From the NCBI RefSeq assembly GCF_032854445.1, contig NC_088296.1, forward strand, positions 27,583,064 to 27,647,063: DNA of 64,000 nucleotides, given 5' to 3'. Source of the stretch: Liolophura sinensis. Lineage: Eukaryota > Mollusca > Polyplacophora > Chitonida > Chitonidae. The translations under genes and the position numbers were made by a program. Below are positions 3,782 to 59,370 of the stretch, in pieces. The notes under the pieces are model-generated. The model saw only the letters and a list, made by a program, of their open reading frames with translations. It was not told the origin of the DNA and did no database searches. How positions within the stretch are numbered: position 1 is the stretch's first letter; every line of letters begins with the position of its first letter.

Positions 3782-4030
3782 TTTATTTATTTGATTGATG
3801 TTTCACGCCGTACTCAAGAATATTTCACTTATACGACCAGCATTATGGTGGGAGGAAACCAGGCAGAGCCTGGGGGAAACCCACGACCAGTCGCAGGTTG
3901 CTTCCAGACCTTCTCACGTACGGCCGGAGAGGAAGTCAGCATGAGCTGGACTTGAACTCACAGCGACTGCATTGGTGAGAGGCTTCTGGGTCATTACGAT
4001 GCGCTAGCGCGCTGACCAACGGAGGCCCCC
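3782..4030 (-). mobile_element. Full-length tRNA-derived SINE, family A
   Basis: On the minus strand the element begins with a tRNA-like head (GGGGGCCTCCGTTGG, A-box region; B-box-like GAGTTCAAGTCC), continues through a conserved central block (GGTTTCCTCCCACCATAATG) and ends in TAAATAAA. Imperfect target-site duplications flank it: AGGCGTCAACTATG on the left and AGCGTCAACCATATG on the right. Confidence 0.85.
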
Positions 4031-6267: not shown

Positions 6268-6515
<248 letters not shown>

Positions 6516-16235: not shown

Positions 16236-16368
16236 TTTTTTTTTGATTGGTGTTTTACGCCGTACTCAAGAATATTTCACTTATACGACGGCGGCCAGCA
16301 TTATGGTGGGTGGAAACCAGGCAGAGCACGGGGGAAACCCACGACCATCCGCAGGTTGCTGGCAGACC
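16236..16368 (-). mobile_element. Short family A SINE (no tRNA head) inside satellite
   Basis: A 133-bp copy with perfect 12-bp target-site duplications, AAGCTATAATGA at 16224-16235 and 16369-16380. On the minus strand it starts at GGTCTGCCAGCAACC, with no tRNA-like head. The copy at 18656-18786 starts at the same base. Confidence 0.9.
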
Positions 16369-17770: not shown

Positions 17771-18655
17771 AAGTGGCAAGGTGATGTATTGGTTTTGGAC
17801 AGCCCTTCCATACGGCAGTGACAGCACATCCCGTCCCTTATTTAATAGTAAAGGAAGCAGGAAGCAGAGAGTAAAGAACGATATTGTAAGGTTGTAATAC
17901 AGAGTTTTGCCTACAGAGTTCTCTGGTGGACTCTCAAGCTACACCTACCTGTACATTCGCAAATACTAACCTGTGTCTGCACAGGTGTACATTCTAATGA
18001 CAACATATGAAAACAAGGTAAATGGATGTATGATTACCGCCTATGCAACGGTTAATTTGTTAAAATCCACAGGTAGGACGTTATAAAATCATTCCGTCAC
18101 AGATACAATTACAATAAAATTTCACAATGTACGAGTTTCTGGCATAAAGCAAGATGTGCTAGCCCAGTAATCTGATTGAGGTTTTCCAGTCAGCTTTATG
18201 ATATATTAGAGCGGCACAATGTACGAGTTGCTGACATAAAACTCATTTGTTTGCACTTTAGGCGTTTTGGAGTTAGTAGTGACGAGCAGCTATACAAAAT
18301 GACCCACTTATTCGTCAAACAAACGCGAGAGTTGAATGGTGTGCCGCGCATACCGGTTGCATTTGCACGAGGTCATTTTTATAGTCATTTGTTGGCATTC
18401 ACCACTTTACAGGAGTCGGGTGAAAAAGTGAGCACATCTTGAAGTTCGCGCTACGATTACCAGGTGGAGAGTGGCGAAGAAACAGCGAATCATTTGGCCA
18501 CTGCTTTAGATGAACAGAGCAAAGGAACACAAGGCGACGTGATTAGCTCTAGTTCTCTAGTGGAAGCGATAAAGGTAGGCCTGGGGTTCAGTGTTACTTG
18601 TTTGATGTGTCCATTGGGTTGCTGTAGTGAGCTGTATTCGGAATGTTAACATTTA
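17771..18655. other. No confident gene; one unexplained 88-codon frame
   Basis: A frame at 18176-18442 has a normal-looking residue composition (LYDILERHNVRV... MTHLFVKQTRELNG), but I recognise no domain and see no clear splice context. A 26-bp motif CACAATGTACGAGTT(T/G)CTG is present twice (about 18124 and 18216). It may be an old transposon or gene fragment. Confidence 0.3.
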
Positions 18656-18786
18656 TTTATTTGATTGGTGTTTTACGCCGTACTCAAGAATATTTCACTT
18701 ATACGACGGCGGCCAGCATTATGGTGGGTGGAAACCGGGCACAGCCCGGGGGAAACCCACGACCATCCGCAGGTTGCTGACAGACC
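18656..18786 (-). mobile_element. Short family A SINE (no tRNA head)
   Basis: A 131-bp copy flanked by perfect 12-bp duplications TGTTAACATTTA (18644-18655, 18787-18798). Its 5' boundary matches that of the copy at 16236-16368. Confidence 0.9.
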
Positions 18787-18837
18787 TGTTAACATTTAAC
18801 ACAACAGTGCATGAAGCTACTAACAGAAGTGTATGTA

Positions 18838-21690: not shown

Positions 21691-23480
21691 TGAGAGTTTA
21701 GTGAGAATTATACAACTTTTTGAACAAAACACTGACTTATGCAGTACTGGCCAGTTGAAAGCTGTGTATAGTCATGTCGCTGCCAGGATTATGGAAAAAA
21801 AGCAATCACTGAATATGTTGCGTGAAGTACCGATAGGCCTATAAGCGTTTCATTTTGTTGTTTGATTCGTGCCATCCACGTACATGTATGTAGGCAAACA
21901 GTTTTAAATCTCTGTCAGTAAATAAACATCTAGGAAGACTGTATGCATTTTTGTCCAATTAATTTCCTTGCGTATATTAGAACCTCTTTGGGAATACATG
22001 TAGCCATGTGCTATTGACAGATGAAGTATATATAAGCTCCACACATCACATATCCAATATAACAACACACGTTCCTTGAATCAACTTGGTTGCTTTGAAG
22101 AGAGTTGACTTTTTTCTATGCGACAATATTTTCTATTTTGTCTTTTGTTTCTTTTCCATTTTCAGTGCAATAACATTTTGTCTGGTCTATTTTCTGTCGA
22201 TAACAGTTGAATAGGAGGTAGTTGAAAGGGTTTCTTCCTTGCCACTAACAGACGTGACTAAGTCTTCTGAAATAATTTTGAAAATCTTTAGAGGTAAAAA
22301 AACCTTTCGTTGATAGCCAATTTTGTTACTTGCAAAACGGGTTAGACAAAATTGCCGGTCGCCTGACTGAGTTAGTTATCTTAGCATAACCGTTATGTTC
22401 TTTGTAAAACGGGTCCCCTGACTACGGTGGCTATCTGGCCAACAAGGGCAGACAACCCCACTGAACATTCGTAAGAAAATTTGACACCGTGAATTTGTCT
22501 CCTAAAAGTAATTTGGACCAAATCTGCACAGTCTGTTGTCCATTCCTACCATTGCGATGACCTTTTGTGGGGAAACTGGTAACGTATTACTTATGCTTTG
22601 CAAGAGGACGATGAACAATCCAGCTTGGACCCGAGCCGCCATTGCAAGGAAACATATACACTGTTAAATATATAAAAAAAACTTATAGGGTAAAGAGCAA
22701 AAGCAGAGCAACTACGGCAAGGGTGAAAGCTGACAAATAGCCACATAAAACCGATGAAATGCTGCAATTTGTCAATTTGCCGCAATTGGGGTTTTATCCT
22801 CACCATTCATATGATAACATAAATAGAAGCATTTGAAAAGCCACCTGTAAAGCAATACCTTGGCAAATGCCTGGCATTGGATATTTGTATACTTTGGGGC
22901 GATAATGCTAAAGCACCAATTTACATGTAGGACTAACAGCAATGATGAGTCATTATGACACAAGTTAAGATCGAATTAAGACACAAATTAGGTTCCATTT
23001 TAATGATTCAAGTTGTCGGAACCCGGTTTAAGTACTTGCCTTTCAATGGCTCGCTCAAAGTGCTGGTTCAGCGGGAGCAATGGATCACTTGTCCTCCACT
23101 AATACAGGCCACATATTTACCTCGCTCAGGGGGTAAAAACCGGATCCCACACTTAGAAAAACTCTCCAGATACTCCCAAAGGTATGGAAGTGGTGGCTGT
23201 TCTCATGTATATAATCTTCACTTCAACGCCCTTTGAACTGATAGCTTCAAAATTGTTGATAATTCCGCCTGTACCCCGTATGTGAGGGTGTATGTGCATC
23301 GCGCGGAATAATACCGTCTATGTATAATAAGTTACAATCAAAAAGCAACGAATGTCTGTGTCGACGCCTTGATATTAACATCAGCCAATCCGTCCTTCTA
23401 TGAATCAATCATGACCTTTAGGTTAATGAACTAGTTAATCTGTAGAAATGGAATCGTCTTCATTGTATGTCTTTTCTTGT
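21691..23480. other. No gene recognised; 5' flank of esterase gene 2
   Basis: AT-rich sequence with short frames only. The first exon and promoter of esterase gene 2 probably lie here or further left, because an acceptor sits at 23487-23488. Confidence 0.4.
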
Positions 23481-23488
23481 CTTTGCAG

Positions 23489-25024
23489 GTCTTTACAAAT
23501 CAAAGACATGGGTATCCTTCCGCTTATCTCCCTCGTCGTTGTATCCATAGCGACGGCGTCTGCGTCAGTCGTGAACACAACCGTTGGAGAAGTTAGGGGA
23601 CAAGAAAACACAAATGTTGGAATAGAAACTTTCCTGGGAATTCCCTACGCCGAGGCTCCAGAAGGGGACCTTCGGTTTAAGCCTCCGGTCAGGAAATCCC
23701 GAATGGATGGAGTGTTCAATGCCGTTAGTAACGAGTTTATCTGTCCTCAGCAGACGGATTTTACGTCTCTTACACTAAACCTGAACATGACGGAGGACTG
23801 TTTAAGGCTGGACATTTACAGACCGCTGCAATCATCCAAAGCCAACCAGCTGCCGGTCATGGTTTGGATACACGGTGGAGCGTATATCATTGGAGACAGT
23901 CAAACGTACAACGGGAACTCGCTTGCGGGAATGTACGGCGTCGTCGTTGTTGTCATCAACTATCGCCTGGGCGTACTAGGATTCCTCGACACTTTGGACG
24001 AACACTCCATCGGAAACTTTGGTCTGAGAGACCAGTGTTCTGCCTTGGAATGGGTCAGCGACAACATCGAAGAATTTGGCGGAAATTTCAGCAGTGTTAC
24101 CATTTTTGGCGAGAGCGCGGGATCTGCTTCCGTGATCCAACTGGCGATCTCTTCGCTGTGTCACGGAAAGTTTAGCAAAATAATCGCCCAAAGCGGGTCA
24201 GCCTGGGCACCGTGGAGTCACAACAGAAACCCTCTGAAGATCGCCAAAGACCTTGCCGTCAAAACAGGATGTCCCACAGAAACTGGCGCCATGGTGACCT
24301 GTTTGAGGGAAAAACCATTCCAGGACTTGATAGCAGCTCAAGCATTGCAGTTGGCAGAGCCCTCTTTGGGACTTTTTAACCCATCGTACAGAAGAGACGT
24401 TTTTCCAGAAAACCCAATGGACATGGTTAAAAACCCCGAATCCTCTGAACCCATCAGGCGGTTTCGATCCTTAGATCTGATGATTGGAATAATGAAGGAA
24501 GAAGGAGAGTCTTCGATCAACTTCGAACTGACGGGCAAGTTTGATGGCGTGATAGCCAATCTCTCCTCGGGAATTATGTCTGACAATTCTCAAGAAGAGA
24601 GGATAAGCACAACTCTGAGGCGTCTCCTCACACAAGACGAAGACGTCATTCGAAAACTTCTTCCCACGATGAAATATCAGTACACCGACTGGAAAAATAG
24701 AGAAAATCCTTTCGCAAATACCCGGATGGCCGCCCGTTTTGAAGGAGATATAAATTTCGTGGTGAGTATTGTCCAAGCGGCTCGGCTCCACGCAGGCCCA
24801 GTGACCCCATCGCAAGAAGACAGACGATCAGAAAACACCTTTTTCTATCAGTTCCTCCACAAAAGTTCTTTCTTACCTGTCTATCCATGGACGGATGGCG
24901 GCACCCATTTTGAAGATGTCCCTTATGTCTTCGGGTACACAACTCAAGTTTATAATGGAACCGCGGACGAAGAGGCGCTATCTCGTGCCGTTATGGAATA
25001 CTGGACGAACTTCGCTAAATCAGG
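23489..25024 (+). CDS. Esterase gene 2, exon with start codon
   Basis: Acceptor AG at 23487-23488, start codon at 23508, donor GG|GTAAGT at 25025. The coding part is 1517 nt, exactly the length in gene 1. Unspliced read-through hits TAA at once (GGG TAA). Confidence 0.92.
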
Positions 25025-28000
25025 GTAAGTTCTGTCTCCTTACGTGTTAGTGTGACATTGTGTACCATCATGGAGTACTGGACGAACTGTGTTAAATCTG
25101 GGTAAGCTCTTCACGTTTTTGTATGACATTGTGTGCCATCATGGTATACTGGACAAATATAGCTAAATCAGGGTAAGTTCTGTCTCCTCACGTGTTTGTG
25201 TGACATTGTGTACCATCATGGTATACTGGACAAATATAGCTAAATCAGGGTAAGTTCTGTTTCCTCACGTGTTTGTGTGACATTGTGTACCATCATGGTA
25301 TACTGGACAAATATAGCTAAATCAGGGTAAGTTCTGTTTCCTCACGTGTTTGTGTGACAATGTGTACCATCATGGTATACTGGACAAATATAGCTAAATC
25401 AGGGTAAGTTCTGTTTTCTCACGTGTTTGTGTGACATTGTGTACCATCATGGTATACTGGACAAATATAGCTAAATCAGGGTATGTTCTGTCTCCTCACG
25501 TGTTTGTGTGACATTGTGTGCCATCATGGAGTACTGGGCGCACTTCGCTAACTCTGGGTAAGTTCTGTTTCCTCACATGTTTTGTGACATTGTGTACCAT
25601 CATGGTATACTGGACAAAGATAGCTAAATCGGGGTATGTTCTATGTCCTCACGTGTTTGTGTGACATTGTGTACCATCTTGGAGTACTGGGCGCACTTTG
25701 CTAACTCTGGGTAAGTTCTGTCTCCTCACGTGCTTTGTGACATTGTGTACCATCATGTTATACTGGACAAATATAGCTAAATCGGGGTATGTTCTGTCTC
25801 CACACGTGTTTGTGTGACATTATGTACCATCATGGAGTACTGGGCGCACCTCGCTAATTCTGGGTAAGTTCTGTCTCCTCACGTGTTTGTGTGACATTGT
25901 GTACCATCATGGTATACTGGACAAATATAGCTAAATCGGGGTATGTTCTGTCTCCACACGTGTTTGTGTGACATTATGTACCATCATGGAGTACTGGGCG
26001 CACTTCGCTAATTCTGGGTAAGTTCTGTCTCCTCACGTGTTTGTGTGACATTGTGTACCATCATGGTATACTGGACAAATATAGCTAAATCGGGGTATGT
26101 TCTGTCTCCTCACGTGTTTGTGTGACATTGTGTACCATCATGGAGTACTGGGCGCACTTCGCTAATTCTGGGTAAGTTCTGTCTCCTCACGTGTTTGTAT
26201 GACATTGTGTACCATCATGGTATACTGGACAAATATAGCTAAATCAGGGTAAGTTCTGTCTCCTCACGTGTTTGTGTGACATTGTGTACCATCATGGAGT
26301 ACTGGGCGCACTTCGCTAATTCTGGGTAAGTTCTGTCTCCTCACGTGTTTGTGTGACATTGTGTACCATCATGGTATACTGGACAAATATAGCTAAATCA
26401 GGGTAAGTTCTGTCTCCTCACGTGTTTGTGTGACATTGTGTACCATCATGGAGTACTGGGCGCACTTCGCTAACTCTGGGTAAGTTCTGTCTCCTCACGT
26501 GTTTGTGTGACATTGTGTACCATCATGGTATACTGGACAAATATAGCTAAATCAGGGTAAGTTCTGTCTCCTCACGTGTTTGTGTGACATTGTGTACCAT
26601 CATGGTATACTGGACAAATATAGCTAAATCAGGGTAAGTTCTGTTTTCTCACGTGTTTGTGTGACATTGTGTACCATCATGGTATACTGGACAAATATAG
26701 CTAAATCAGGGTAAGTTCTGTCTCCTCACGTGTTTGTGTGACATTGTGTACCATCATGGTATACTGGACAAATATAGCTAAATCAGGGTAAGTTCTGTCT
26801 CCTCACGTGTTTGTGTGACATTGTGTACCATCATGGTATACTGGACAAATATAACTAAATCAGGGTAAGTTCTGTCTCCTCACGTGTTTGTGTGACATTG
26901 TGTACCATCATGGTATACTGGACAAATATAGCTAAATCAGGGTAAGTTCTGTCTCCTCACGTGTTTGTGTGACATTGTGTACCATCATGGTATACTGGAC
27001 AAATATAGCTAAATCAGGGTAAGTTCTGTCTCCTCACGTGTTTGTGTGACATTGTGTACCATCATGGTATACTGGACAAATATAGCTAAATCAGGGTAAG
27101 TTCTGTCTCCTCACGTGTTTGTGTGACATTGTGTACCATCATGGTATACTGGACAAATATAGCTAAATCAGGGTAAGTTCTGTCTCCTCACGTGTTTGTG
27201 TGACATTGTGTACCATCATGGTATACTGGACAAATATAGCTAAATTGGGATATGTTCTGTCTCCTCACGTGATTTATTTTTTTATTTGAATTCTGTTTCA
27301 TTAAGAGTATTTCACTTATACGACGGCGGCCAACATTATTGTGGGTGGAAACCGGGCAGAGCTCGGGGGAAACCTACGATCATCCGCAGGTTGCTGACAG
27401 ACCTTTCCACGTACGGCCGGAGAGGAAGCCAGCATGATCTCCACACGTGTTTGTGTGACATTGTGTACCATCATGGAGAAATTGGCGCACTTTTCTCAGT
27501 CTCGGTAAGGTTAGTCTCCAGTCGTGTTAGTGTGGCATACAGTCATGGTATAGGGATGGACAATGATAAAGCTGGATGCGTCAGTGAGACATTGCCATTT
27601 TGGGGAGCTTTAACCGCATTTGTTACACACTGTGAACTTAACGTCATGTTACACGACACACACGAAAATATACGAAACATCCATGTAGAAATTCGTGGAT
27701 CGTGGGGTTTGATGGGGATTTCGATACAGATGAGTATTGAACACATCGCTGGCGGTTTTGATGTTTTAACAAGGAGTCGTTCTTGGAAAAGTGTTCAGCT
27801 TGAGGGCAATTTGAGTAATCCCAAACCAGTGACGGCTGACGAACTGCAGTTAACATCACTGCATTTAATGGTTAATTTTGCTTAACTCTTTTTGCTATTG
27901 TGCTTGTGACTATTTATAAATTTACTTGAATAGTCAGAACAAAACTCTAACTGAGGTATACAGAGAGGGGGCATTATTTCACCAGATACGTGTGACCGTT

Positions 28001-29407
28001 TGTCAGATATCCCGCTGTCTTGGCAGCTTTGGTTTTGCTATCCATGTTCTAGTCGTTTTATACACAAAATATTCTCACCAGATTAATCGTCATAAATGAT
28101 AGATGGAACTTTGACGCTGGCATAACCCGTATGAGCGCCAGAGCTGAGTTTGTGCGGGACAATAGTGAGATAACTCCGAATAATTATAACCTTTTGATCC
28201 ATATTGTGGTTTATGTCAAACCCAATATCAACACCTGACATAACAAATATTACCATTAATACCATAGCCATTATTTTATTTGATTGGTGTTTTACGCCGT
28301 ACTCAAGAATATTTCATTTATACGACGGCAGCCAGCATTATGGTAGAAGTGAAGTACAAGGCGTATGTCCAAATGCAGCATATATCTGCCGGGATTCGTA
28401 AAGGGAGGTAACTTTGTAAATACCGACGCTAACGGTGTGAAATGTGTGTTTAATTCATGGGAACGATATGTCTCTGTGCAAATCTTCACCAAAATGGGTG
28501 AAAAATGGGGATGCAAGCAAATTGGAGGCTTGGGCCATACCCTTAATAACTTCCTTGCAGTGGTCTTAAAGAAACCAAAAGAGAATTACGCTGATGGATT
28601 GAGTGAGTGAGCGCTTTGGGTTTAATGTCGTACTTAACAATTTTTCAGTCATATGACGACGAAGGAATCCTTAGAGTGCATATGCGTGTAAAGCGCCTAC
28701 TTGTTGCAAGACGGATTTCCAACGCTCTTTGATCTAGTGCTGCTTCACTGAGACGGCTTACCGAAGGCAAGTTAGTGGCTCCGCCCGACCCATTATTCTG
28801 ATACGGGTGTTTGGTACTATCCCCTTTATGCCGAACGCCAAGCGAGGAAGTTACACCTTCCTGTTTTAAGGTCTTGGGTGTAACTCACTGACGACATGAA
28901 GACCAACTGATACAGGCTGAAATTATAGAAACTTCTTTGCCTTCCAGCTTACCATGACCTGGTTGATCGGAAATAACGTTAGTTTTACAACGTTTGTTAT
29001 CCATTTTTACAACGTTTTTTGATTGCATGTATGTGAACTTGTCATTTGCTTATTTATCTTTCAGAAACCCGAACTTACCAAGCAAAAAGTATATCCAAAC
29101 AACATGGCCGACATTCGACGCAGAGATGGAGAAATTCGTTCAGCTCGAGGTCAACATGTCACCTAATTCAACATCCACCTTCCCGTATGCTCGGCGAGTG
29201 GCATTCTGGGAGGAGCTGGTACCGGCGCAGATAAAATCTATTGAGGATTTTAAGAAAGAATTAAAAGAATCAGAAGAAAAAGAAAAGGAAAAGTGTAAAC
29301 CGCCTAACACAGCTAACGCTCTTGCGGGTGGAATCTTATGTGTCTATCTGCTGCCACTGGTCTTATATTCTGTGATATTTGGTTTTTACACACAGGTACT
29401 TTTTTAA
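23508..29407 (+). CDS. Type-B carboxylesterase (COesterase family), complete two-exon coding region
   Basis: Joining 23508-25024 to 29065-29407 gives 1860 nt, 619 residues plus stop, which is a usual length for the family. The phase-2 junction (GG|A) restores the family motif GNPN. The Met at 23508 is preferred because a splice acceptor (TTTGCAG) ends at 23488 and because it aligns with gene 1. An upstream Met at 23448 lies before that acceptor. Residues 1-20 form a signal peptide. Motifs: EDCLRLDIY (96-104), oxyanion-hole HGGAY (122-126, Ala where gene 1 has Gly), GESAG with Ser203, Glu about 332 in MKEEGE, His467 in THFEDVPYVFG. The catalytic triad is intact. The C-terminus is a charged linker followed by a hydrophobic stretch of about 24 residues (ILCVYLLPLVLYSVIF), suggesting a membrane anchor or GPI signal. 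The enzyme is probably an extracellular ester hydrolase with unknown substrate. Confidence 0.93.
25025..27260 (+). repeat. 77-bp exon-border satellite in intron of esterase gene 2, about 29 units
   Basis: Each unit reads as a 32-nt exon-end copy (ATGGTATACTGGAC... or ATGGAGTACTGGGC...), then GG|GTAAGTTCTGT, then about 35 nt ending TTGTGTACCATC. The first unit continues directly from the true exon end. Two subtypes, MVYWTNIAKSG and MEYWAHFANSG, alternate as dimers at about 25480-26500, and the right end is homogeneous. Each unit holds a strong donor motif (some GTATG) and nearly all hold a CACGTG hexamer. No unit has a good acceptor, so these are not cassette exons. One or two further units resume at 27439-27515 after a SINE. 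Confidence 0.95.
27272..27438 (-). mobile_element. Family A SINE inserted into the exon-border satellite
   Basis: Tail-first copy truncated within the linker before the tRNA-like head (ends GGAAGCCAGCATGAT). Flanking CTCCTCACGTG (27261-27271) and CTCCACACGTG (27439-27449) fit a target-site duplication of satellite sequence. The satellite therefore predates this insertion. Confidence 0.8.
27516..28263. other. Intron sequence of esterase gene 2, nothing further recognised
   Basis: An open frame running through 27540-27885 starts inside the SINE and satellite and has no recognised domain. It is regarded as chance. Confidence 0.4.
28264..28345 (-). mobile_element. Family A SINE fragment
   Basis: Contains tail, GTTTTACGCCGTACTCAAG and CAGCCAGCATTATGG blocks, then stops. 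Confidence 0.7.
28608..28905 (-). mobile_element. SINE-like element, family B, in intron of esterase gene 2
   Basis: Inverted copy with the (TGAG)n/TTTAATGTCGTACTTAACA tail on the left and the blocks GGATTTCCAACGCTCTTTG and CTATCCCCTTTATGCC. The tRNA-like head is largely missing. Confidence 0.7.
29065..29407 (+). CDS. Esterase gene 2, terminal coding exon
   Basis: Acceptor TTTCAG ends at 29064. The exon opens with the rest of GNPNLP and contains TTWPTFDAEMEKFV, which matches the conserved end of type-B esterases. After that come a Lys/Glu-rich linker and a hydrophobic C-terminus. The stop is at 29405-29407. A possible donor (CAG|GTAC) at about 29397 leaves open an alternative longer transcript. 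Confidence 0.88.
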
Positions 29408-34196: not shown

Positions 34197-37100
34197 GTAA
34201 GTTGTAACTTCCTCTGTTCACTTTTTTCTCTTTCTCACCACTTTAGTTTCCTGATTTATCAGTGATTTATGAACACGACGAAAGCCTTAAATGTCGTTTG
34301 TCTCCATGTATGATCTGTGAACACGACTAAAGCCTTGAATGTCATTTGTCTGCATGTATGATTTGTGGACACGACAGAATCCTTGAATATCATTTGTCTG
34401 CATGTATGATCTGTGGGCACGACAAAAGCCTTGAATGTCATTTGTCTGCATGTGTGATTTGTGGACACGACAGAAGCCTTGAATGTCATTTGTCTGCATG
34501 TATGATTTGTGGACACGACAGAAGCCTTGAATGTCATTTGTCTGCATGTGTGATTTACGGACACTCTGAAATCCTTGATTGTCATTTGTCTGCATTATGA
34601 CTTATGGAGAAGACGAAATCCTTGATTGTCATTTATCTACATGTATGATTTGCGGACACGTCGAAACCCTTGTCATTTGTCTACATGGAGGATTTGCGGA
34701 CATGTCGAAATCCTTGTCATTTGTCTACAAGTAGGATTTGAGGACACGTCGAAATCCTTGTCAGTTGTCTACATGTACGATTTGTGGACACGTCAAAATC
34801 TTTGCCATTTGTCTACATGTATGATTTGCGGACACTCTGAAATCCTTGATTGTCATTTGTCTGCATTATGACTTATGGAGAAGACGAAATCCTTGATTGT
34901 CATTTGCCTACATGTATGATTTGCGGACACATCGAAATCCTTGTCATTTGTCTACATGGAGGATTTGTGGAGACGACGAAATCTTGATTGTCATTTGTCT
35001 ACATGTATGATTTGCGGACACGTCAAATTCCTTGTGATTTGTATACATGTAGGATTTGAGGACACGTCGAAATCCTTGTCATTTATCTACATGGAGGATT
35101 TGTGGAGACGACGAAATCTTGATTGTCATTTGTCTACATGTATGATTTGCGGACACGTCAAATTCCTTGTGATTTGTATACATGTAGGATTTGAGGACAC
35201 GTCGAAATCCTTGTCATTTGTCTACATGGAGGATTTGTGGAGACGACGAAATCTTGATTGTCATTTGTCTACATGTATGATTTGCGGACACGTCAAATTC
35301 CTTGTGATTTGTATACATGTAGGATTTGAGGACACGTCGAAATCCTTGTGATTTGTATACAAGTAGGATTTGAGGACACGTCGAAATCCTTGTCATTTGT
35401 CTACATGTACGATTTGCAGACACGTCAAAATCGTTGTCATTTGTCTACATGTATGATTTGCGGACACTCAAATTATAATCCAAAATTAAAATCCTAAATA
35501 TATACAACGGATACAAGTTTGGACTTTGTACTGTAGAATGTTGGGCATTCTTTTTCAGATATTTTGCAAAGTGAAGATTTTGACTGATGTTTTAGACAAG
35601 TCTCAGAGTTGTCCAGAGATGAGACCACCTACATGTCAACTTCATTTTTCACCTGTTTTGAGGACTTCTTTGCACATTGAATCACTTTAAACGAATGTTG
35701 GACTACACGCCTTTCACCGCATCGTGGTTGTCACATTGGAGTCAAGAGCGTCTAAATCATGGAATACCCCTGTCCTTATTCACTCAAAAATAGTTTGTTA
35801 ATTCTAAATGAGAGTCTGTTGTCTGAGTGATTGTAAAACGTGCTATGTCACTGTAACATACCGCTCATATTCAGCATCATTCGGTTTTAGTCTAATCTGC
35901 TACAGTGACAGAACAATCTGCTACAATAACAAACTTCCTTTACCCTATCACCCAGAGAACGGATTTTTGTTCATTTTAACAGATTGTTTTTGTGAGAATT
36001 TCGTAGAGTGATCTACGTTAAGATCATCGCTTCCCTGGTTGTACTGAAGCCTTCTGAATATGGAAGTAGCGGAAACAAATTTGATGAATTTGTTCACAAA
36101 AACGTGAACAAGAAGAACTCCGATGAAATTTGTGATGTCTTCATAATCGACATTCGTTTCATCTGATGCTGTAAAGATAGACTTAGAATTTGTCATTTGT
36201 GATTTCAGAAATATGGAATTCTGTTTCGAGTGTTTATTTGATATAAAATATTTTAGAGACAGCGCTAAATTACTCTATGGATTGATTGTTTCAGCGGCTG
36301 TTTCAGCGGCAAGAAAATGTCCCAACACCTGTTGGAAACTCCCCCGTGAACCAGTGTGCGGCAGCAATGGCGTCACCTTCAGGAATTACTGCGCACTTGT
36401 TCGAAGAAACTGTATGCAACCAAGGACCAAAGAAGTGGTAAGTGAAGTTTTAGAAAAATTCCCAGATTGGTCCGGGCTGTTGGACCCCGTCAACCCCCCC
36501 CCCCTCCCAACAATCCTTCTTCTACCACCCGAGTTCGAACCCGAGTCATGTCATATGTAAAAAAACTGATAAAGTTCTAATCGAACCGATGTCAGATTAG
36601 CGCGGTGACCATTGAAAGGGACAATATTGGATTGTTAGCATGATATGTTTTTAATGACTTATTAATTAATTTGTTTATTTCTATGATTGGTGTCTTACAC
36701 ATTTTACATTAGTGTTGGGGGAGGGGGGATCGGACAGAGCAGGAGGAAACCCCCAAGCATCTGGAGTTTGCTGTCAGATCTTCCCACGTACGACCGGAAA
36801 GAGAAGCCAAGACCAACACAGATAAATTAAAATATTTATGTTTTTTTATTGCTGTTTAAGGCCTTACACATGAGTTTTTATGTTATTATATGATGACGGT
36901 GAGATTTGTGGTGAATTTAAGATAAACGACAGGCCTTTGGCAAGTTACTGGAGGCTTTCCCCACGTGTGTTGTGCAGAGAAACACTGTATATTTGTGGTG
37001 TTGAACGTTAGATTGGGAAATCGGCCGCAGAACTATGGTCAACCGCTTTAGTTGGGTGGGTGAGTGTGTGTGTGTGAGTGGGAGGGTTGGGGGGGGGGGG

Positions 37101-40100: not shown

Positions 40101-42928
40101 AGCATCGCATTTTAACACCCCCAGTAAAACACATCATGGTTTCATCCAGAATTAGGTCACGCCCCTTTAGATTGGTTGGACGAAAACAACGTGTCAGGGA
40201 AAGTGGAGGCATTTTTGGCTGTTAATCTATACCGCTATGGCGTTTTTGTTATAATTACGAAAATATTTTGCTGCTACCAAGGTAATAGAATAGAAATAAT
40301 GTTCGCGTCAGGGTAGTCTAACGGTAGTTTTACATCAAATCGATGTGGAAGAGTTTAGAAATTTTTAGAGTTTATATTTTAAAAAATTAAAATTTCTAAA
40401 CTCTTCCACATCGATTTGATGTAAAACTACCGTTAGACTACCCTGACGCGAACATTATTTCTTAATTCAAAATTGCAAGTTTTACGTTAAAGTTCGCTTC
40501 GTGGAATCAATGCCTTAGCCAGCATAGATTTAATTTAATTTAATTTCACTTGTTTTGCATATGTGCTACTGAGACTGGCATTAGGGTCGTCATAGCCTGC
40601 CTTGACCCCTTTTATTGCAGACGCTGCTGTATGATGGAACATGTGTGAACTATGACCTCGCCGTTCCTAGGGCCCAGGACCCCCAACCGGAAATCCGGTA
40701 CAGGCCCATGGACTGCTCGCGCTATCCCGGGCCCAAGTTTGCTCCGTGCCCTAATCTCAGTGACCCCACCTGCGGTAATGATCTGAAAACCTACCCGAAC
40801 GAGTGCAGGATGTGCCGTACCCAGAAAGAAGGGCTTGTCATCCGTCATAAAGGTACGTTTACCAGGAAAGTCTATGTTAGTTGACGACTGGTTTAACGAC
40901 GTCTGTTGTGAAGCCTAGATTCATCACAGGCACATAAGAAAGTGACCTTAATTGGTCTAGTGTTCGAAACCTATTCAGGTAGGGGATTTTGTCTGGAGAT
41001 TTATATGTATGTATGTACACATGTACGCGTGGGGTTTAACGTCGTACATGAAAATATTTCAGCCATCTGACGAATATGAGTCATTGGGCGTGCATACAGA
41101 TAGTTTATCTTCTGAGGGAGGGAGAGTCCATGCCACCAAAGTGCTGCCACCACTTCGGGAATCGGGCTACATGTGCCGTGTAGTACGTACCTCAATGGGT
41201 TACATGTACCATGTGGAACGTACCTTAGTGGGTACATGTACCGAGTAGTACGTACCTCAGTGGGTTACACGTACTATGTGGTACGTACTTCAGTGGGTTA
41301 CATGTGCCGTGTAGTACACACTTCAGTGGGTTACATGTGCCATGTAGTATGTAACTCACTGGGTTACATGTACCGTGTAGTACGTACCTCAGTGGGTTAC
41401 ATGTGCCGTGTAGTACGTACCTCAATGGGTTACATGTACCATGTGGTACGTACTTCAGTGGGTTACATGTGCCGTGTAGTATGTAACTCACTGGGTTACA
41501 TGTACCGTGTAGTATGTACCTCAGTGGGTTACATGTGCCGTGTAGTATGTACCTCAGTGGGTTACATGTGCCGTGTAGTATGTACCTCAGTGGGTTACAT
41601 ATGCCGTGTAGTACGTACCTCAGTGGGTTACATGTGACGTGTAGTACGTACCTCAGTAAGTTACATGTACCGTGTAGTACGTACCTCAGTAAGTTACATG
41701 TACCGTGTAGTACGTACCTCAGTGGGTTACATGTACCATGTGGAACGTACCTTAGTGGGGTACATGTACCGAGTAGTACGTACTTCAGTGGGTTACATGT
41801 GCCGTGTAGTACGTAACTCACTAGGTTACATGCACCGTGTAGTACGTACCTCAGTGGGTTACATGTACCGTGCAGTACGTACCTCAGTGGGTTACATATG
41901 CCGTGTAGTACGTACCTCAGTGGGTTACATGTGACGTGTAGTACGTACCTCAGCCTTCAAATGTCGTATTGACGAAAGCGGGGAGCTGAACCGACCGTTC
42001 TAATTTAGGCCATCACAATTGGGGGATCATAAAAAGCCGTCCTGAATGGAACCGGCTTTGTCTAGGTCATTGGTTTTTTCTTTTGTATACATCCGAGCCT
42101 GTCCGAGACGGCCTTGATCCACCAATGTTTCCTAGTGTAATCGAAGCTTAATGTTGGCAATCATTTTAGGGCGATGTACAACGTATGAGATGGCTCTGAC
42201 AGGCGAATCCGACCCTAACGCAGTCAGTAAACGGGAAATCGCTCCTCTGGCACTGCCACGTCAGGTGAGATACACAAATCCTGCTCCTTCAATCCACAAG
42301 ACATTTGGACAATTTGGCGTTTTTTTTATCTTACACAATGGGACTTAGATGTCATAAAATCGTCAGATGTCATATTTTTTTAAACTTGTAAAACATTACA
42401 TTAACTTTTCGCAATATTTCCTAAAATTAGCTTTACCTTTCCGGAGATTACGGTAATCTTATAACACTTTCGTTACAATTGCCAAATTTTTACGGACTGC
42501 TTACTTCCCCTTTAATAATGTTTTTACACAGCCTTACAAAGCTTTGATGTCTTTGTATACGGCTTGACCATTTGTTAAATATGGAGTCAACACAGTTAAG
42601 CACGTTCCAGAATAATCTCACCTGATATTGTCTCGATATACTGCACAAAATAGGATCTGTCGTATGCCATTAATCCTTCCATAAATCTAGGATCTGTCGT
42701 ATGCCATTAATCCTTCCATAAGTCTGACTCCGTTTCCTTTCACAGCCTAACTGCCGAGACGCCTTTGTCCCGTGTTCGCACACTTACGGAAGCCAAGTTT
42801 GCGCCTCTGACGGAATGCGTGAGCAGACTTTCGCGAGTGAGTGCGTTCTTTGCAGCCACTGGAGGAAAGCCTCTGTGAATGGAGCTCCACTGAACTACCT
42901 AATTACAAAGGTTGGAGGCATCTGCTAG
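34160..42928 (+). CDS. Secreted three-domain Kazal-type serine protease inhibitor (first gene)
   Basis: Joining 34160-34196, 36295-36437, 40621-40852, 42170-42264 and 42746-42928 gives 690 nt, 229 residues plus stop, with GT-AG introns in consistent phases (1, 0, 1, 0). Residues 1-17 are a signal peptide (MRALIIVLVAFA...). Three Kazal domains follow, each with six cysteines. Domain 1 has CGSNGVTFRNYC, domain 2 has CGNDLKTYPNEC. Domain 3 has a variant CASDGMREQTFASEC with three extra residues where the family has CGTDGVTY. Counting two residues after the second Cys, the inferred P1 residues are Lys, Asn and His. It probably inhibits extracellular serine proteases; only domain 1 has a trypsin-type P1. 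Exon borders fall inside or between domains as in the second gene, so the two genes are tandem duplicates. Confidence 0.9.
34258..35468. repeat. 44-48-bp satellite with higher-order repeats, intron 1 of Kazal gene 1
   Basis: Units carry TCATTTGTCTGCATGTATGA and 'GGACACGAC'. From about 34941 to 35351 composite units of roughly 135 bp repeat three times. Frames across it on both strands are repeat products. Confidence 0.92.
35469..36294. other. Remainder of Kazal gene 1 intron 1
   Basis: No repeat or exon recognised before the acceptor at 36293-36294. Confidence 0.4.
36295..36437 (+). CDS. Kazal gene 1 exon 2 (most of domain 1)
   Basis: Encodes AAVSAARKCPNTCWK to RRNCMQPRTKEV, with donor GTG|GTAAGT. 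A second acceptor TGTTTCAG lies 12 nt downstream (exon start 36307), in frame. Its use would drop four residues at the signal cleavage region. Confidence 0.9.
36683..36812 (-). mobile_element. Diverged family A SINE in Kazal gene 1 intron 2
   Basis: GATTGGTGTCTTACAC, GGACAGAGC, GTTTGCTGTCAGATCTTCCC and 'CGACCGGAAAGAG' blocks in family A order. Confidence 0.6.
37391..37655. repeat. 15-bp minisatellite (GTCGTGCTGGCGTCA), about 17 copies
   Basis: Lies in Kazal gene 1 intron 2. A unit of 15 keeps all frames periodic with five residues (VLASV; TTDAS on minus), giving open frames without gene support. Confidence 0.95.
37656..40293. other. Rest of Kazal gene 1 intron 2, no exon recognised
   Basis: Short frames near 38600-39085 (for example MPLNENTPMSVTPLPVQM) have ordinary composition but no recognised domain or splice signals. 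Confidence 0.4.
40294..40460. repeat. Perfect inverted repeat: 72-bp arms, 23-bp loop
   Basis: Arms 40294-40365 and 40389-40460 are exact reverse complements starting AAATAATGTTCGCGTCAGGG. The loop is AT-rich. It lies in Kazal gene 1 intron 2, ending 160 nt before exon 3. Possible identities are a fold-back MITE or a hairpin-forming intronic RNA. I found no clear target-site duplication. Confidence 0.95.
40621..40852 (+). CDS. Kazal gene 1 exon 3 (end of domain 1, most of domain 2)
   Basis: Acceptor TTTATTGCAG ends at 40620. Encodes LLYDGTCVNYD (sixth Cys of domain 1) through CGNDLKTYPNECRMC. Donor AAAG|GTACG. The 232-nt length is identical to exon 3 of gene 2. Confidence 0.92.
41022..41165 (-). 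mobile_element. SINE-like fragment, family C, in Kazal gene 1 intron 3
   Basis: GGGTTTAACGTCGTACATGA, 'TCATTGGGCGTGCATACAG' and 'CCATGCCACCAAAGTGCTGCC' correspond to blocks in 9714-9900. Confidence 0.45.
41166..41955. repeat. 33-bp minisatellite, about 24 copies, Kazal gene 1 intron 3
   Basis: Unit GGTTACATGTGCCGTGTAGT plus 'ACGTACCTCAGTG'. Being a multiple of three it is open on both strands (GYMCRVVRTSV per unit on plus). No start or splice context makes it a gene. Confidence 0.95.
42170..42264 (+). CDS. Kazal gene 1 exon 4 (linker)
   Basis: Acceptor CATTTTAG ends at 42169. Encodes the last Cys of domain 2 (GRCTTYEMALTG) and the linker KREIAPLALPRQ. Donor CAG|GTGAGA. Confidence 0.88.
42651..42726. 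repeat. 38-bp tandem duplication just before exon 5
   Basis: Two copies of a unit starting TAGGATCTGTCGTATGCC abut the acceptor region of Kazal gene 1 exon 5. Confidence 0.9.
42746..42928 (+). CDS. Kazal gene 1 exon 5 (domain 3 and stop)
   Basis: Acceptor TTTCACAG ends at 42745. Encodes PNCRDAFVPC, the variant CASDGMREQTFASEC and ITKVGGIC, then TAG. The ending KVGGIC corresponds to KMGGIC of gene 2. Confidence 0.9.
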   Translation, partial: PNCRDAFVPCSHTYGSQVCASDGMREQTFASECVLCSHWRKASVNGAPLNYLITKVGGIC

Positions 42929-43679: not shown

Positions 43680-45415
43680 GGATTTATGCAGATAGTGTAG
43701 GGTGTATACAGGTAATGAAGGGTGTGTACAGGTCATGAAGGGAGTGTGCAGATAGTGTAGGGTGTATAGAGATAGTGTAGAGTGTATACAGGCAATAAAG
43801 GTGTGTGCAGGTAATTAAGGGTGTACACAGGTAATGAAGTGCAGATGGTGTAGGAAAGGTTATGAAAGATGTGTGCAGATAGTGTTGGGTGTATACAGGT
43901 ACTGAATGGTGTGGTCGAGATAGTGAAGGGTGTGTGCAGGTAGTGTAGGCTGTATACAGGTAATGAAGGGTGTGTGAAGGTAATGAAGGGTGTATACAGG
44001 TAATGAAGGATGTGTGCAGATGGTGTATGGTGTATACAGGTAATGAAGGGAGTGTGCAGATAGTGTATGATGTATACAGGTAATGAAGGGAGTTGTGCAG
44101 ATAGTATATGGTGTACAATGGTAATGAAAGAGTGTGCAGATGGTGTATGGTGTATACAGGTAATGATTTATTTATTTATTTGATTGGTGTTTTACGCCGT
44201 ACTCAAGAATATTTCACTTATACGACGGCGGCCAGCATTATGTTGGGTGGAAACCGGGCAGAGCCCGGGGGAAACTCACGACCATCCGCAGGTTGCTGGT
44301 AGACCTTCCCACTTACGGCCGGGGAGGAAGCCAGCATGAGCTGGACTTGAAATCACAGCGACCGCATTGGTGAGAGGCTCCTGGGTCATTACGCTGCGCT
44401 AGCGCGCTAACCGACTGAGCCACGGAGGCCCCTACAGGTAATGAAGGGAGTGTGCAGATAGTGTATGGTGTATACAGGTAATGAAGGGAGTGTGCAGGTA
44501 ATGAAGGGTGTATACAGGTAATGAAGGAGTGTGCAGATAGTGTATGGCGTACAATGGTAATGAAGGGTGTGTGCATATAGTGTAGGCTGTATACATGTAG
44601 TGAAGGGTGTATGCAGGTAATGAAGAGCATGTGCAGGTTATGAAGGGTGTATGCAGGTAATGAAGGGCGTATACAGGTAATGAAGGGTGTGTGCAGATAG
44701 TGTATGGTGTATACAGGTAATAAAGGATGTGTGCAGATAGTGTATGGTGTATACAGGTAATGAAGGGTGTGTGCAGATAGTGTATGGTGTATACAGGTAA
44801 TGAAGGGTGTGTGCAGATGGTGTATGGTGTATACAGGTAATGAAGGGTGTGTGCAGATAGTGTATGGTGTATACAGGTAATGAAGGGAGTGTGCAGGTAA
44901 TGAAGGGTGTATACAGGTAATGAAGGAGTGTGCAGATAGTGTATGGCGTACAATGGTAATGAAGGGTGTGTGCATATAGTGTAGGCTGTATACATGTAGT
45001 GAAGGGTGTATGCAGGTAATGAAGAGCATGTGCAGGTTATGAAGGGTGTATGCAGGTAATGAAGGGCGTATACAGGTAATGAAGGGTGTGTGCAGATAGT
45101 GTATGGTGTATACAGGTAATAAAGGATGTGTGCAGATAGTGTATGGTGTATACAGGTAATGAAGGGTGTGTGCAGATAGTGTATGGTGTATACAGGTAAT
45201 GAAGGGTGTGTGCAGATAGTGTATGGTGTATACAGGTAATGAAGGGTGTGTGCAGATGGTGTATGGTGTATACAGGTAATGAAGGGTGTGTGCAAATAGT
45301 GTATGGTGTATACAGGTAATGAAGGGTGTGTGCAGATAGTGTATGGTGTATACAGGTAATGAAGGGTGTGTGCAGATAGTGTATGGTGTGTACAGGTAAT
45401 GAAGGGTGAATACAA
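43680..45415. repeat. 40-bp minisatellite with 400-bp higher-order repeat
   Basis: Unit 'GAAGGGTGTGTGCAGATAG' plus 'TGTATGGTGTATACAGGTAAT'. A block of ten variant units near 44521 recurs near 44920, about 400 bp later, with the same rare variants in the same order. The array is split by a SINE. Minus-strand frames of up to 327 codons arise from it. Confidence 0.95.
44167..44432 (-). mobile_element. Best-preserved full-length family A SINE (266 bp)
   Basis: On the minus strand: tRNA-like head with A box TGGCTCAGTCGG (44411-44422) and a B-box-like TTCAAGTCC, linker, conserved body (GGTTTCCACCCAACATAATG), tail ATAAATAAATAAA. It is flanked by TACAGGTAATGA at 44155-44166 and 44433-44444, which is also array sequence. 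It serves as the reference copy in this window. Confidence 0.92.
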
Positions 45416-49323: not shown

Positions 49324-52300
49324 ATGGCGCCCTACCACGTCCGAACCATGCTAGGACTGTACGCATTACTTGGCCTTCTGGCACTGGGTAAGATACCACA
49401 TACATACATAACATTTGTACTGCACTAAACTGTTGCCAAACCTTCGCGTACAATAAACCTGCCTGGTTGATATATATGTGTAAATTCATCTCTTGATTTC
49501 TCATGCATTTTCAATATTTCTACGTTTCTGACGGACTATCCTTCTAATTCTTCTAACTTTGGACAGTTATATTGCAGCGGACAGCGAGCTGGATGATGTT
49601 GTAAACCTTGCCAGATGTCAGGAATGACCAAGATACGCATTCGTATGGGCCCTGTCAAAAAGTGTTGAGAAAACAAATGCCGAAATTGACACTACCCTGA
49701 AAGTTTGATTGAATTCTCAATCGGACTGTCTTTTGGAGCCTAACTAGCGTGAAATAAGGAACTTCGGTTTGCTGAGTTTTGTGAGCCCTTGAGACATCTT
49801 AACAAGTCACGTAATAGCTAATGTCCCGTCCTCTATTTCCATGGTAGATTTTTACAAAAACGTAAGCCTTTTATATCATTTCGGCGATTAAATAACAACG
49901 GTAATTTTTATGGTAGGCAAATTTTGCACAGTTGTACGGCTGCTGCCTTACTAGAATGCTTGGCGGGGAACACCAAGAACAGTGTTTTAAACTGTTGGTG
50001 TACACTGACAGGTCTTTCAATCTACTGACACAACAGTGTACCGATTCACCGTTTAACCGACGGTGCACTGACTGCAGTCAATCATTCATTTGGTCGGTCC
50101 ATTTACCTCTGCTTGTGTCAGTCCGTTCGTCCGTGAATCCGTCATTCATTCATTCATTCAATCCGTCATTTGGTTCGTCCATTTACCTCTGCTTGTGCCC
50201 CTCCGTTCGTCAGTCAATCCATCATTCATTCAACCTGCCATTTGGTCAGTCCATTTACCTCTGCGTGTGCCCCTCTGTCCGTCAGTGAATTCCTCATTCA
50301 TTCATTCAATCTGTCATTTGGTCAGTCCATTTACCTCTGCGTATGCCCCTCTGTCCGTCAGTGAATCCGTCACTCATTCATTCAACCGGTCATTTGGTCC
50401 GTCCATTTACCTCTGCGTGTGCCCCTCTGTCCGTCAGTCAATCCGTCATTCATTCATTGATTCAATCCGTCATTTGGTTCGTCCATTTACCTCTGCGTGT
50501 GCCCCTCTGTCCGTCAGTCAATCCGTCATTCATTTATTCAATCCGTCATTTGGTCCGTTCATTTACCTCTGCGTGTGCCCCTCCGTTCGTCAGTCAGTCC
50601 GTCACATATTCATTCATTCAATCTGTCATTTGGTCCGTCCATTTACCTCTGCGTGTTCCCCTCTGTTCGTCAGTCAATCCGTCGTTCATTGATTCAGTTA
50701 AATGCTCAGTTTTCCTCTACAGGTCTGGCGCAAGACACTTGTCCTGACTGCTCGTCAATACCTGACTCCCCCGTGTGCGGTACTGATGGGAAGACGTACC
50801 CGACATCCTGCGCCGTGAGCAAACGGAACTGTGATGACCCCAAACTGAAACTGGTAAGTTCTTCTCTGGACACACTCTTGAAAAGCGCTACAACAATAAA
50901 AACAACGTGTATGAGCGACAAAAGAAGATATGAAGCAGCAGTAACGCTGGGATTAGAGGTGTCGCGAGGTCGCGTTCAAAGGCTTATACCGTGGCTAGAT
51001 TCCAGTATTCATTTCTTTATTTTGAAGTTTCTTTACCAAGGCATTGTAGCATAAAGAAATGAAGACACACACTAAAAAGAGACAATTTATAAAAAAACCC
51101 CAGAAATCCGGATAAAATTGATCTGTCAACTCACAATCTGTTATCCCCTGAATGCATCAGTCAGATTATACCGTCACTGAATGCATCAGTCAGATTATAC
51201 CGTCACTGAATGCATCAGTCAGATTATACCGTCACTGAATGCATCAGTCAGATTACACCGTCACTGAATGCATCAGTCAGATTATACCGTCACTGAATGC
51301 ATCAGTCAGGTTATACCGTCACTGAATGCATCAGTCAGATTATACCGTCACTGAATGCATCAGTCAGATTACACCGTCACTGAATGCATCAGTCAGGTTA
51401 TACCGTCACTGAATGCATCAGTCAGATTACACCGTCACTGAATGCATCAGTCAGGTTATACCATCACTGAATGCATCAGTCAGATTATACCGTCACTGAA
51501 TGCATCAGTCAGATTATACCGTCACTGAATGCATCAGTCAGATTATACCGTCACTGAATGCATCAGTCAGGTTATACCGTCACTGAATGCATCAGTCAGA
51601 TTATACCATCACTGAATGCATCAGTCAGATTACACCGTCACTGAATGCATCAGTCAGATTATACCGTCACTGAATGCATCAGTCAGATTATACCGTCACT
51701 GAATGCATCAGTCAGATTATACCGTCACTGAATGCATCAGTCAGGTTATACCGTCACTGAATGCATCAGTCAGATTATACCGTCACTGAATGCATCAGTC
51801 AGATTATACCGTCACTGAATGTATCAGTCAGATTATACCGTCACTGAATGCATCAGTCAGATTATACCGTCACTGAATGCATCAGTCAGGTTATACCGTC
51901 ACTGAATGCATCAGTCAGATTATACCATCACTGAATGCATCAGTCAGGTTATACCGTCACTGAATGCATCAGTCAGATTATACCGTCACTGAATGCATCA
52001 GTCAGATTATACCGTCACTTTCACCGGATAATCGCACGGTAATTAATTTGTCCCTTCTAAGAACATATTAACATCTATCAACCAGCCAATTGATCATCAT
52101 CTGGAACAATTCCAGAGTGAAACAATCAACTAACCAACAAGCTTATGTATAACTGTCCACCAGCGGTCATTTGCGCAATGAATTCTTACAATAAACCGCT
52201 GTTCCTATTGTGTCCTCTCCTGATGTGTGCGGGTAGGTTTGGCAGCAGCCTGCGAATGGTCGTTGATTTCACCTGGTCTCTGTCCGATTTCCCTCCACCA

Positions 52301-57319: not shown

Positions 57320-58700
57320 AGGTGTCCTTGAGGTATACTTGAGGAACATTTGAGGTGTACCATTGGGCTATAGCATATCTAAACTGAGGTGTGTCTAGGG
57401 TATGCTTGAGGTGTATTTGAGATGTACTGAAGGTGTATTTGGGGTACAATTATGCAAACCAGTGCCTCAAGTACACATATAGTACAACTCAGTGGAGGTG
57501 TACCCTATAAATATAAGGTAAAAATATGAGGCACAAGGTGTATTGGAGGTACATGCTTATAGGCAAGGTGAATGTACTCTGTTTTCACTTTTGTTTTGAT
57601 AGAAAACAAGCTCAAAGCACTTAAATATTGGCTGTATAAATTATAGATAAATTTAAATAAGTTTGCGCATGCTGTTCTCTATTTACAGTGCATGTATCTG
57701 TAAATCTCAGTTGATTTACAACAAAGGCAGTGACAAACATTTACATAAAGCTTTCTAGCTGCCTGATCAAAATTCTGTGGTACTCCTGTTCTATGCCCAT
57801 TAGAACTGTCCATGTGCCCAAACATGTTACAAATTCTGTCCCAGGAAGCATCAATCCGTGCATAACTGGGCTGTTTTCCCACAGCCTGGAATATATATGC
57901 ACATTGTTCAGGGCAGCCATCTTGGAATAATCAGGGGTAAATATATACGCGCTCTGTGACTGGTCAATATTCGCACACTGAATGGCAAGTTAGTGTTCGG
58001 TTGGACAAAGGCTTACATTTATTTAGTAAATCTTTTTCATTTTTTGCACAAAAACTTTTGTAATTTTATATTCAACATTTTGTCTGAAGTAAAATGTCTA
58101 AATCTTATCTCTTAATTGTTTTAAAACTTTAAAAAAGAGTATGAGGTGTACCTGAGACACATGACCACTAAATTATTTTCAAAACCTGCCAAAATTCTTA
58201 AGGAACACCTGAGGTACATCATTTAGTTTTTTTTTCAAACTTTCAAAGTTTTTAAGTTAAACGTGAGGTACATCATTTACTTATTTTTCAAACTTTCAAA
58301 GTTTCTAAGATAAACGTGAGGTACATTTACTTATTTTTCAGACTTTCAAAGTTTCTAAGATAAACGTGAGGTACATCATTCTTATTTTTCAGACTTTCAA
58401 AGTTTCTAAGATAAACGTGAGGTACATCATTGACTTATTTTTCAAACTTTCAAAGTTTCTAAGATAAACGTGAGGTACATCATTGACTTATTTTTCAAAC
58501 TTTCAAAGTTTCTAAGATAAATGTGAGGTACATCATTTACCTTTTTTAAACGTTCAAAGTTTATAAAGTGAACTTGAGGTACATTTTCTAAGTTGATTTT
58601 CTGTGAAAGTTGCTGAGGCGTATTTGAGGTACTTTATTTTATATTAAAAAACCGCTCAAAAACTCTCAAAGTTTCGAAGTTGTAACTGAGGTACATCTTC
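57320..58700. repeat. Region rich in TGAGGTRYA motifs around an open-frame remnant
   Basis: The left flank (57320-57560) has many GAGGTGTA/GAGGTACA motifs. The right flank (58140-58700) has about ten 51-53-bp units with CGTGAGGTACATCATT and 'CAAACTTTCAAAGTTTCTAAG'. Between them a minus-strand frame (57679-57882: ASWDRICNMFGHMDSSNG) loosely resembles a Myb/SANT-like segment. It might be a degenerate DNA transposon with subterminal repeats, but this is not established. It is also present in unit B. Confidence 0.45.
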
Positions 58701-58894
58701 TAAGTGTTGACAATTAATCTGCTAAACTGAAGGTTACTCCAGACATTGAATTCATGGAATACGTCATGTTGCACTCAGACAAGCTCATGTAGAAGATGAC
58801 AAAGGAATGTATGAAACAAGACAAAGGGATTACAGTGTGCACACACTCAAATACACGTAACATGTGAAGCTGGGATACCTGTATGACATCAACG

Positions 58895-59370
58895 CGAAAG
58901 TCTTGCGTGTATCTGCATTTCTAGGACAACATGAGGAGAAGTGTCTGGCCTGGTGTCACATTCAAAGGGTAGCAGGAAGATAACGTAGAAATCTTGTGTG
59001 TATCTGCATTTCTAGGACAACATGAGGAGAAGTGTCTGGCCCAGTGTCACATTCAAAGGGTAGCAGGAAGATAACGTAGAAATCTTGTGTGTATCTGCAT
59101 TTCTAGGACAACATGAGGAGAAGTGTCTGGTCTGGTGTCACATTCAAGGGACAGCAAATTTGTGGACATAAGGAAGATGACGTAATAATCTTGTGTGTAT
59201 CGGCATTTCTTGGACAACATGAGGAGAAATGTCTGGTCTTGTGTCACATTCAAAGGACAGCAGGAAGATAACGTGGAAATCTTGTGTGTATCTGCATTTC
59301 TAGAACAACATGACGAGAAGTGTCTGGTCCGATGTCATATTCAAGGCAGAGTAAATTTGTGGACATAAGG
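58895..59370. repeat. About 90-bp tandem repeat, 5-6 copies
   Basis: Units contain CTTGTGTGTATCTGCATTTC and 'ACAACATGAGGAGAAGTGTCTGG'. Repeated in unit B at about 63232-63700. Confidence 0.92.

Follow-up and report, generated by a model that had tools for sequence, protein, structure and literature searches.

Minisatellites whose unit spans an exon–intron boundary have been described as "mirages" in amphioxus (PMC3087553, PMC3902484). In the literature searched, which leaves most subscription journals outside its scope, donor- or acceptor-spanning arrays are named as a kind for amphioxus only. Boundary-spanning units occur in Adh3, BflGb6, and BflGb9, with similar repeats in PGBD5 and TnC. 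The splice signals often lie within the unit, copies are homogenized inside the array but not at its edges, which escape homogenization, and regular splicing is reportedly undisturbed (PMC3087553). Likewise, PMC3902484 describes repeats that cover splice sites in lancelet PGBD5, with citations of Adh and TnC. By our own reading of PMC3087553, the authentic boundary of BflGb6 is the end member of its array. Internal tandem repeats at exon–intron boundaries in human segmental duplications are treated in PMC2812944; these variable minisatellites occupy the boundaries of paralogous genes, where they add length to exons or create introns, and have, on average, units of 30 bp in four copies. In Crassostrea gigas, short satellite-like arrays are reported to be borne by mobile elements (Helentrons) and scattered through the genome (PMC7492417).

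Here, we describe a boundary-spanning array at an esterase gene of Liolophura sinensis, in a window of 64,000 nucleotides (C2:27583064-27647063) of the 609-Mb assembly. The array shares with the amphioxus mirages a boundary-spanning unit with splice signals, an authentic boundary as the end member, and homogenization inside but not at the edges. It is an intron minisatellite of a kind that is known but has seldom been described, although the first-pass annotation of this DNA knew of no named system like it; the name is in use for amphioxus (PMC3087553 and PMC3902484). It is an unusually long mirage, with about 29 copies compared with 6 and 3 in two BflGb6 haplotypes. Mirages would then not be confined to amphioxus, and the copy number here is roughly five times that reported for BflGb6. 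BflGb6 has a repeated acceptor boundary and BflGb9 a single duplicate of a donor boundary, whereas the esterase has a long donor array. The most interesting part is the repeated occurrence at one donor: unlike the amphioxus mirages, as far as these are described, the esterases include two paralogues with a common unit and a second lineage with a unit of its own. The human repeats resemble the esterase arrays in affecting paralogues, but the esterase intron is old and its place unchanged; unlike the C. gigas arrays, the esterase unit is the host gene's own boundary.

We consider it highly probable that the array is a passive mirage, that is, a boundary minisatellite spread by unequal exchange and gene conversion. 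Judged from its sequence, the most likely view is that instability of this chromosome region gave rise to it as a harmless side product, rather than that it regulates splicing.

Structure of the array at esterase gene 2

The long coding exon of esterase gene 2 lies on the plus strand at 23439-25024 (Pfam PF00135, E 1.4e-126), where 23439 is the start of the stop-to-stop frame and is not settled as the start of the exon. Relatives of its product in the PDB are neuroligins, carboxylesterases, and cholinesterases. The exon is followed by the authentic donor, GTAAGT (25025-25030, plus strand), in phase 2 within a conserved Gly, and the acceptor, TTTCAG|AAAC, completes the codon (GG|A, in G-NPN). 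The second and last exon (29065-29407, plus strand), placed from the sequence and by tblastn, begins at 29065 behind TTATCTTTCAG, where it completes the Gly of G-NPN; by eye, its C terminus is hydrophobic. In the PDB comparison of the gene 2 esterase, the match to human BChE ends at residue 478, a place at which BCHE has an intron.

Tandem Repeats Finder identified a 77-bp unit in 29.7 copies at 24993-27271 of the window, with 89% matches. This result and the cutting of the array into units confirmed the proposal of the first-pass annotation that about 29 units of 77 bp form a satellite in which the end of an exon is repeated together with the 5′ splice site that belongs to it. The array starts within the end of the long exon and includes the donor, and its unit 0 is the authentic exon end, as is also the case in the gene 1 array described below. 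Units were cut at a sequence anchor, with the joint at 25679 placed by hand; as defined by unit comparison, the stretch 25025-27271 (plus strand) comprises complete units 1-28, which measure 71-77 bp, and unit 29, which is interrupted by an insertion. A search of the window for a 23-nt core of the unit, allowing at most 3 mismatches, gave 36 occurrences versus 0 in 100 shuffles, and six of the 36 lie on the minus strand, at 655-1062, in the gene 1 array.

Each unit is composed of 40 nt of exon-like and 37 nt of intron-like sequence, the latter starting with GTAAGTTCTG. The copied exon end (24985-25024, plus strand) was determined by comparing exon ends with units and corresponds to GTACCATC plus 32 nt. 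Its length is best seen against the exon of gene 1, which has GTACCGTC ahead of ATGGAATACTGG; array units have GTACCATC at that place. Hence, the exon origin of the repeated part, as first annotated, holds, and its length has to be revised from 32 to 40 nt. The favored mechanism would begin with a tandem duplication of a segment that takes in the last 40 nt of the exon and about the first 37 nt of the intron, after which the array would have grown by slippage and unequal exchange.

The interior of the array is homogenized and includes ten letter-identical units, so that the array could be mis-sized, its copy number being assembly-dependent. Decay is seen at the edges, in units 1 and 29 and in the outer units. 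The initial estimate of the span, which ran to 27515, took in a dispersed repeat inserted in the array at 27272-27435 (plus strand), recognized from its other copies within the window. Beyond the insertion, decayed outer units (27436-27538, plus strand; 77-82% identical to gene 1 units) reach to about 27538. Most units at 25141-27217 can be read as a frame of 11 codons that opens with ATG, in the context ACCATCATGG, and closes with TAA. The predicted RNA fold of three array units was no better than that of shuffled sequences (z −0.86; 47 of 200 shuffles equally good), and Rfam and ARAGORN searches of the window gave no match.

Two types of array units

Units 2-28 fall into 20 A-type units, which read MVYWTNIAKSG, and seven B-type units, which read MEYWAHFANSG. 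The two types alternate over 15 units (units 6-20; 25449-26601, plus strand), forming a 154-bp higher-order repeat (P 3e-5 versus shuffled order). All differences between the A and B consensus sequences fall in the exon-like part (10 of 32 positions, compared with 0 of the 45 others); this contrast gave Fisher P values of 5.9e-5 for the 32/45 split and 1.1e-3 for the 40/37 split and P 0.00014 in a span test, all tests having been picked after the pattern had been seen. Confinement of the difference to the exon-like part is not explained by simple slippage and counts against the passive-mirage explanation. We read it, by assumption, as conversion of the exon-like part of units from another, unseen source. 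Purifying selection on the exon-like part was considered and rejected, as differences within types are like those of the intron-like part (0.020 versus 0.033 in A and 0.045 versus 0.030 in B). The sequence at the junction between A-type units, ACCATCATGGT, is almost perfectly palindromic.

Donor sites and a possible role in splicing

The GT dinucleotide is intact in 28 of the 28 complete units (1-28), as GTAAG in 23 and as GTATG in five; unit 29 is without GT. Over units 2-28, the mean pairwise difference is 0.052 for the donor hexamer, 0.032 for the rest of the intron-like part, and 0.141 for the exon-like part, the last value being high because there are two unit types. Taken by type, the donor hexamer varies more than either other part among the 20 A-type units (0.066, compared with 0.020 for the exon-like and 0.033 for the intron-like part) and shows no variation at all in the seven B-type units (0, compared with 0.045 and 0.030). 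Since A donors are the most variable part and B donors invariant, the units give no uniform indication that donors are maintained. The invariance of the B-type donors counts against a passive mirage.

In a single pre-mRNA, one exon is thus followed by about 29 donors that hardly differ, which makes the intron a natural test case for how a 5′ splice site is chosen. The first-pass annotation had proposed that these donors could compete with, buffer, or shift splice-site choice. Under such regulation, U1 would be shared among about 29 donors, and splicing from a later one would give a transcript with an early stop, which would lower expression or yield an esterase without the hydrophobic C-terminal tail. 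TAA comes directly after the exon (GGG TAA), and a transcript from any later array donor would carry this stop. In keeping with regulation, GT has been retained in all complete units, B-type donors do not vary, and the authentic donor of gene 1, TGGGTAAGA, scores below its six good copies (7.31 versus 8.87, using a hand-written scoring matrix). Against it stand the variability of the A-type donors, the weakening of five donors to GTATG, the 14 of 18 paralogues that manage without an array, and the amphioxus mirages, which reportedly leave splicing undisturbed (PMC3087553). We regard regulation as very unlikely, and a splicing role of the donor array is not supported by these comparisons or by the stop after the exon; more probably, splicing would proceed from the first donor, and the copies would be passively removed as intron.

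A related proposal, that the array titrates U1 or protects the transcript from premature polyadenylation (telescripting), draws on the density of strong plus-strand donors, which amounts to 10.1 per kb in the array versus 0.8 per kb in the non-array part of the window. Transcripts of one gene would be few relative to the U1 pool, which speaks against titration, and the sense strand of the gene 2 intron has neither AATAAA nor ATTAAA. The suggested influence on polyadenylation thus finds no support in the intron's sequence, and we give this proposal almost no credence. The first-pass statement that the donors have no matching acceptors was tested on three units, in which AGs are preceded by 5-8 pyrimidines within 15 nt, compared with 12 at the true acceptor.

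Near the start of exon 2, at 29071-29079, lies GAACTTACC, which is complementary to the array donors and occurs once on the plus strand of the window outside the gene 1 array. Conserved pairing between donor and exon 2 was rejected, as exon 2 of gene 1 has GAACTATCC instead.

A second array at the inverted paralogue

Esterase gene 1 is an inverted paralogue of gene 2, as shown by codon comparison. Its long coding exon occupies 1166-2745 on the minus strand (Pfam PF00135, E 2.6e-128), where 2745 is the start of the frame and the exon start is not settled; the counterpart of the last exon of gene 2 was found in stretch L038. On the homologous donor of gene 1, Tandem Repeats Finder, the core search, and unit cutting revealed a second mirage array of the 77-bp unit (1165-590, minus strand), which was absent from the first-pass annotation. 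This array consists of a diverged first intron part, six good units, and one decayed unit.

The six good units have best matches of 88-96% in the gene 2 array, the closest pair being gene 1 unit 4 and gene 2 unit 19 (96.1%). Over their first intron parts, genes 1 and 2 share 69% identity in a gapped alignment, compared with a mean of 50% and a maximum of 63% in 500 shuffles. Mean unit identity is 0.909 within the gene 2 array, 0.921 within the gene 1 array, and 0.846 between them; identity being higher within than between, each array has its own history as well. The likeness between the two arrays far exceeds that of nearby synonymous sites, as the synonymous difference of the exon near the donor (codons 450-500) is 0.62.

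Between the two genes, dS is 0.38 overall, 0.00-0.07 over codons 150-250, and 1.29 over codons 450-500, and their longest common exact run is 109 nt. The near-identical codons 150-250 lie in the middle of the exon, at 23958-24257 and 1933-2232. They would represent a gene-conversion tract, which suggests that genes 1 and 2 do convert, and gene conversion may likewise move array sequence between the inverted paralogues. A match between the introns beyond the two arrays (286-56 with 28633-28855) was rejected as homology, since it consists of a dispersed repeat.

Arrays in the esterase family

Across the genome, the 77-bp unit has at least 37 matches, all at the gene 1 and gene 2 loci. A satellite borne by a mobile element was rejected, as none of these matches is listed at a dispersed place. 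The esterase protein matches 29 genomic places at E 1e-20 or better among the 85 of 92 candidates scored. The match reaches the donor in 18 paralogues, and GG|GT lies at the identical place in 18 of 18; L012, with three stops in its match, was omitted from this count and from the tree, and its end piece, L027, was counted. Each exon end was compared with the next 450 nt, and a second copy was detected in four of the 18, namely gene 1, gene 2, L016, and L015 (a score that none of 300 shuffles attained for any of the four). In the same 450 nt, the other 14 have no detectable second copy (P at least 0.057), the lowest values being those of L025 (0.057) and L027 (0.10). All four copy-bearing paralogues lie at 27.48-27.61 Mb of contig C2, and they are not independent events. 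L017, beside them at 27.477 Mb, is without an array, as are the 13 others; the match of L023 (27.43 Mb) stops before the donor and falls outside this judgment.

Because GG|GT is shared by all 18 paralogues and 14 lack a detectable copy, the intron is older than the array. This bears on the idea that duplication of a splice-site segment created the intron (a Rogers-type model), for which the amphioxus globin mirages have been proposed as intermediates (PMC3087553). An intron at one place in all 18 paralogues whose match reaches it, with or without an array, argues against such a birth, which is exceedingly improbable here. The end of the esterase match at human BChE residue 478, where BCHE has an intron, argues against it as well.

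At L016, which lies approximately 100 kb away from gene 1, the homologous donor carries an array with another unit, of 82 bp, whose six close and about five decayed copies occupy most of the 1.15-kb intron. In the sister gene, L015, the intron measures 0.26 kb and contains one decayed copy. The left breakpoints nearly coincide: measured back from the donor, they lie at 40 nt in gene 2 and in L016, at 39 nt in gene 1, and at 43 nt in L015. These positions would fit a single ancient array that predated both esterase lineages, evolved in concert, and was lost in the other paralogues, which is a variant of the passive-mirage explanation and not exclusive of it. However, well-supported branches of a tree of 16 of the 18 paralogues (L027 and L028 left out) force two changes, that is, array origins, with the program warning of a possible false grouping of the long branches of L015/L016 and L019. 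Moreover, the closest paralogue, L011, is without a copy, and of 12 comparisons of intron parts, one gave P 0.034 and the others at least 0.064. A single ancient origin seems unlikely.

The L016 locus also bears on whether array and coding exon exchange sequence, the mirage serving as a reservoir. If so, such a reservoir could rewrite the last codons of a working enzyme. The authentic exon end of L016 is identical to its first array copy over 49 nt and has two silent differences from that of L015. At these two sites, the decayed L016 units 7-9 have the L015 state. Against exchange, the most distal unit, 11, has the L016 state at both sites, and the decayed piece between units 10 and 11 has one site of each state, so that the sites give no direction for an exchange. 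In the window array, the A/B difference confined to the exon-like part touches on the same idea, but at 7-9 of 40 positions, the gene 2 exon end does not agree with the array units with which it was compared, which counts against exchange. On these sequences, we think exchange between array and exon improbable.

In the L016 gene (stretch L039, C2:27478000-27486000), four of five joints between close units have an acceptor-like TTTTCTCCTGACAG, and the fifth has TTTTCTCATGACAG. With this joint, a 35-nt exon-like part, and then a donor, the L016 units look like mini-exons.

Repeat content of the region

The window ends 0.75 Mb from the end of contig C2. Tandem arrays with a period of at least 10 and at least 2.5 copies covered 27% of the window; in six further stretches from the terminal 2 Mb of C2, coverage was 75, 67, 31, 7, 1, and 63%. 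Elsewhere, it was 2, 8, and 9% at 8, 14, and 24 Mb of C2 and 0, 9, and 0% on other contigs; the 13 stretches compared are a tiny part of the 609 Mb. Thus, five of the seven contig-end stretches reach at least 27%, where three of the seven (the window, L038, and L039, which include the stretches at 7 and 31%) were chosen for their esterases and are not random. The two array-poor stretches (7.1% and 1.2%) count against proneness of the region. Judging from these 13 stretches, a minisatellite-rich zone would produce accidental boundary arrays more often, and proneness of the contig end may be the reason for more than one occurrence under the passive-mirage explanation. Repeated arrays at one donor in a minisatellite-rich contig end suggest regional instability rather than selection.

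The dispersed repeat has an ATTT-rich end and occurs at 27272-27435, 44166-44337, 18651-18787, 3782-3942, 16268-16368, 54334-54481, and other places; copies at 27272, 44166, and 16268 abut or split tandem arrays. We take it to be SINE-like and to resemble molluscan SINEs; six 22-base strings from it had no match in literature text. Other donor-rich arrays in the window, considered as possible mirages, lie at 41164-41953 (minus strand, 14 sites), 50078-50696 (minus strand, eight sites), and 6301-6513 (plus strand, 12 sites), and by eye no adjoining exon was recognized on the donor strand of these three. Kazal-type exons are found at 36147-36560 and 50461-51054, the latter with a 76-80-bp array that ends about 25 nt before its acceptor. 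Finally, 58210-59372 and 62496-63709, approximately 4.3 kb apart, contain the same set of 53-, 91-, 106-, and 197-bp repeats and are seemingly a segmental duplication.
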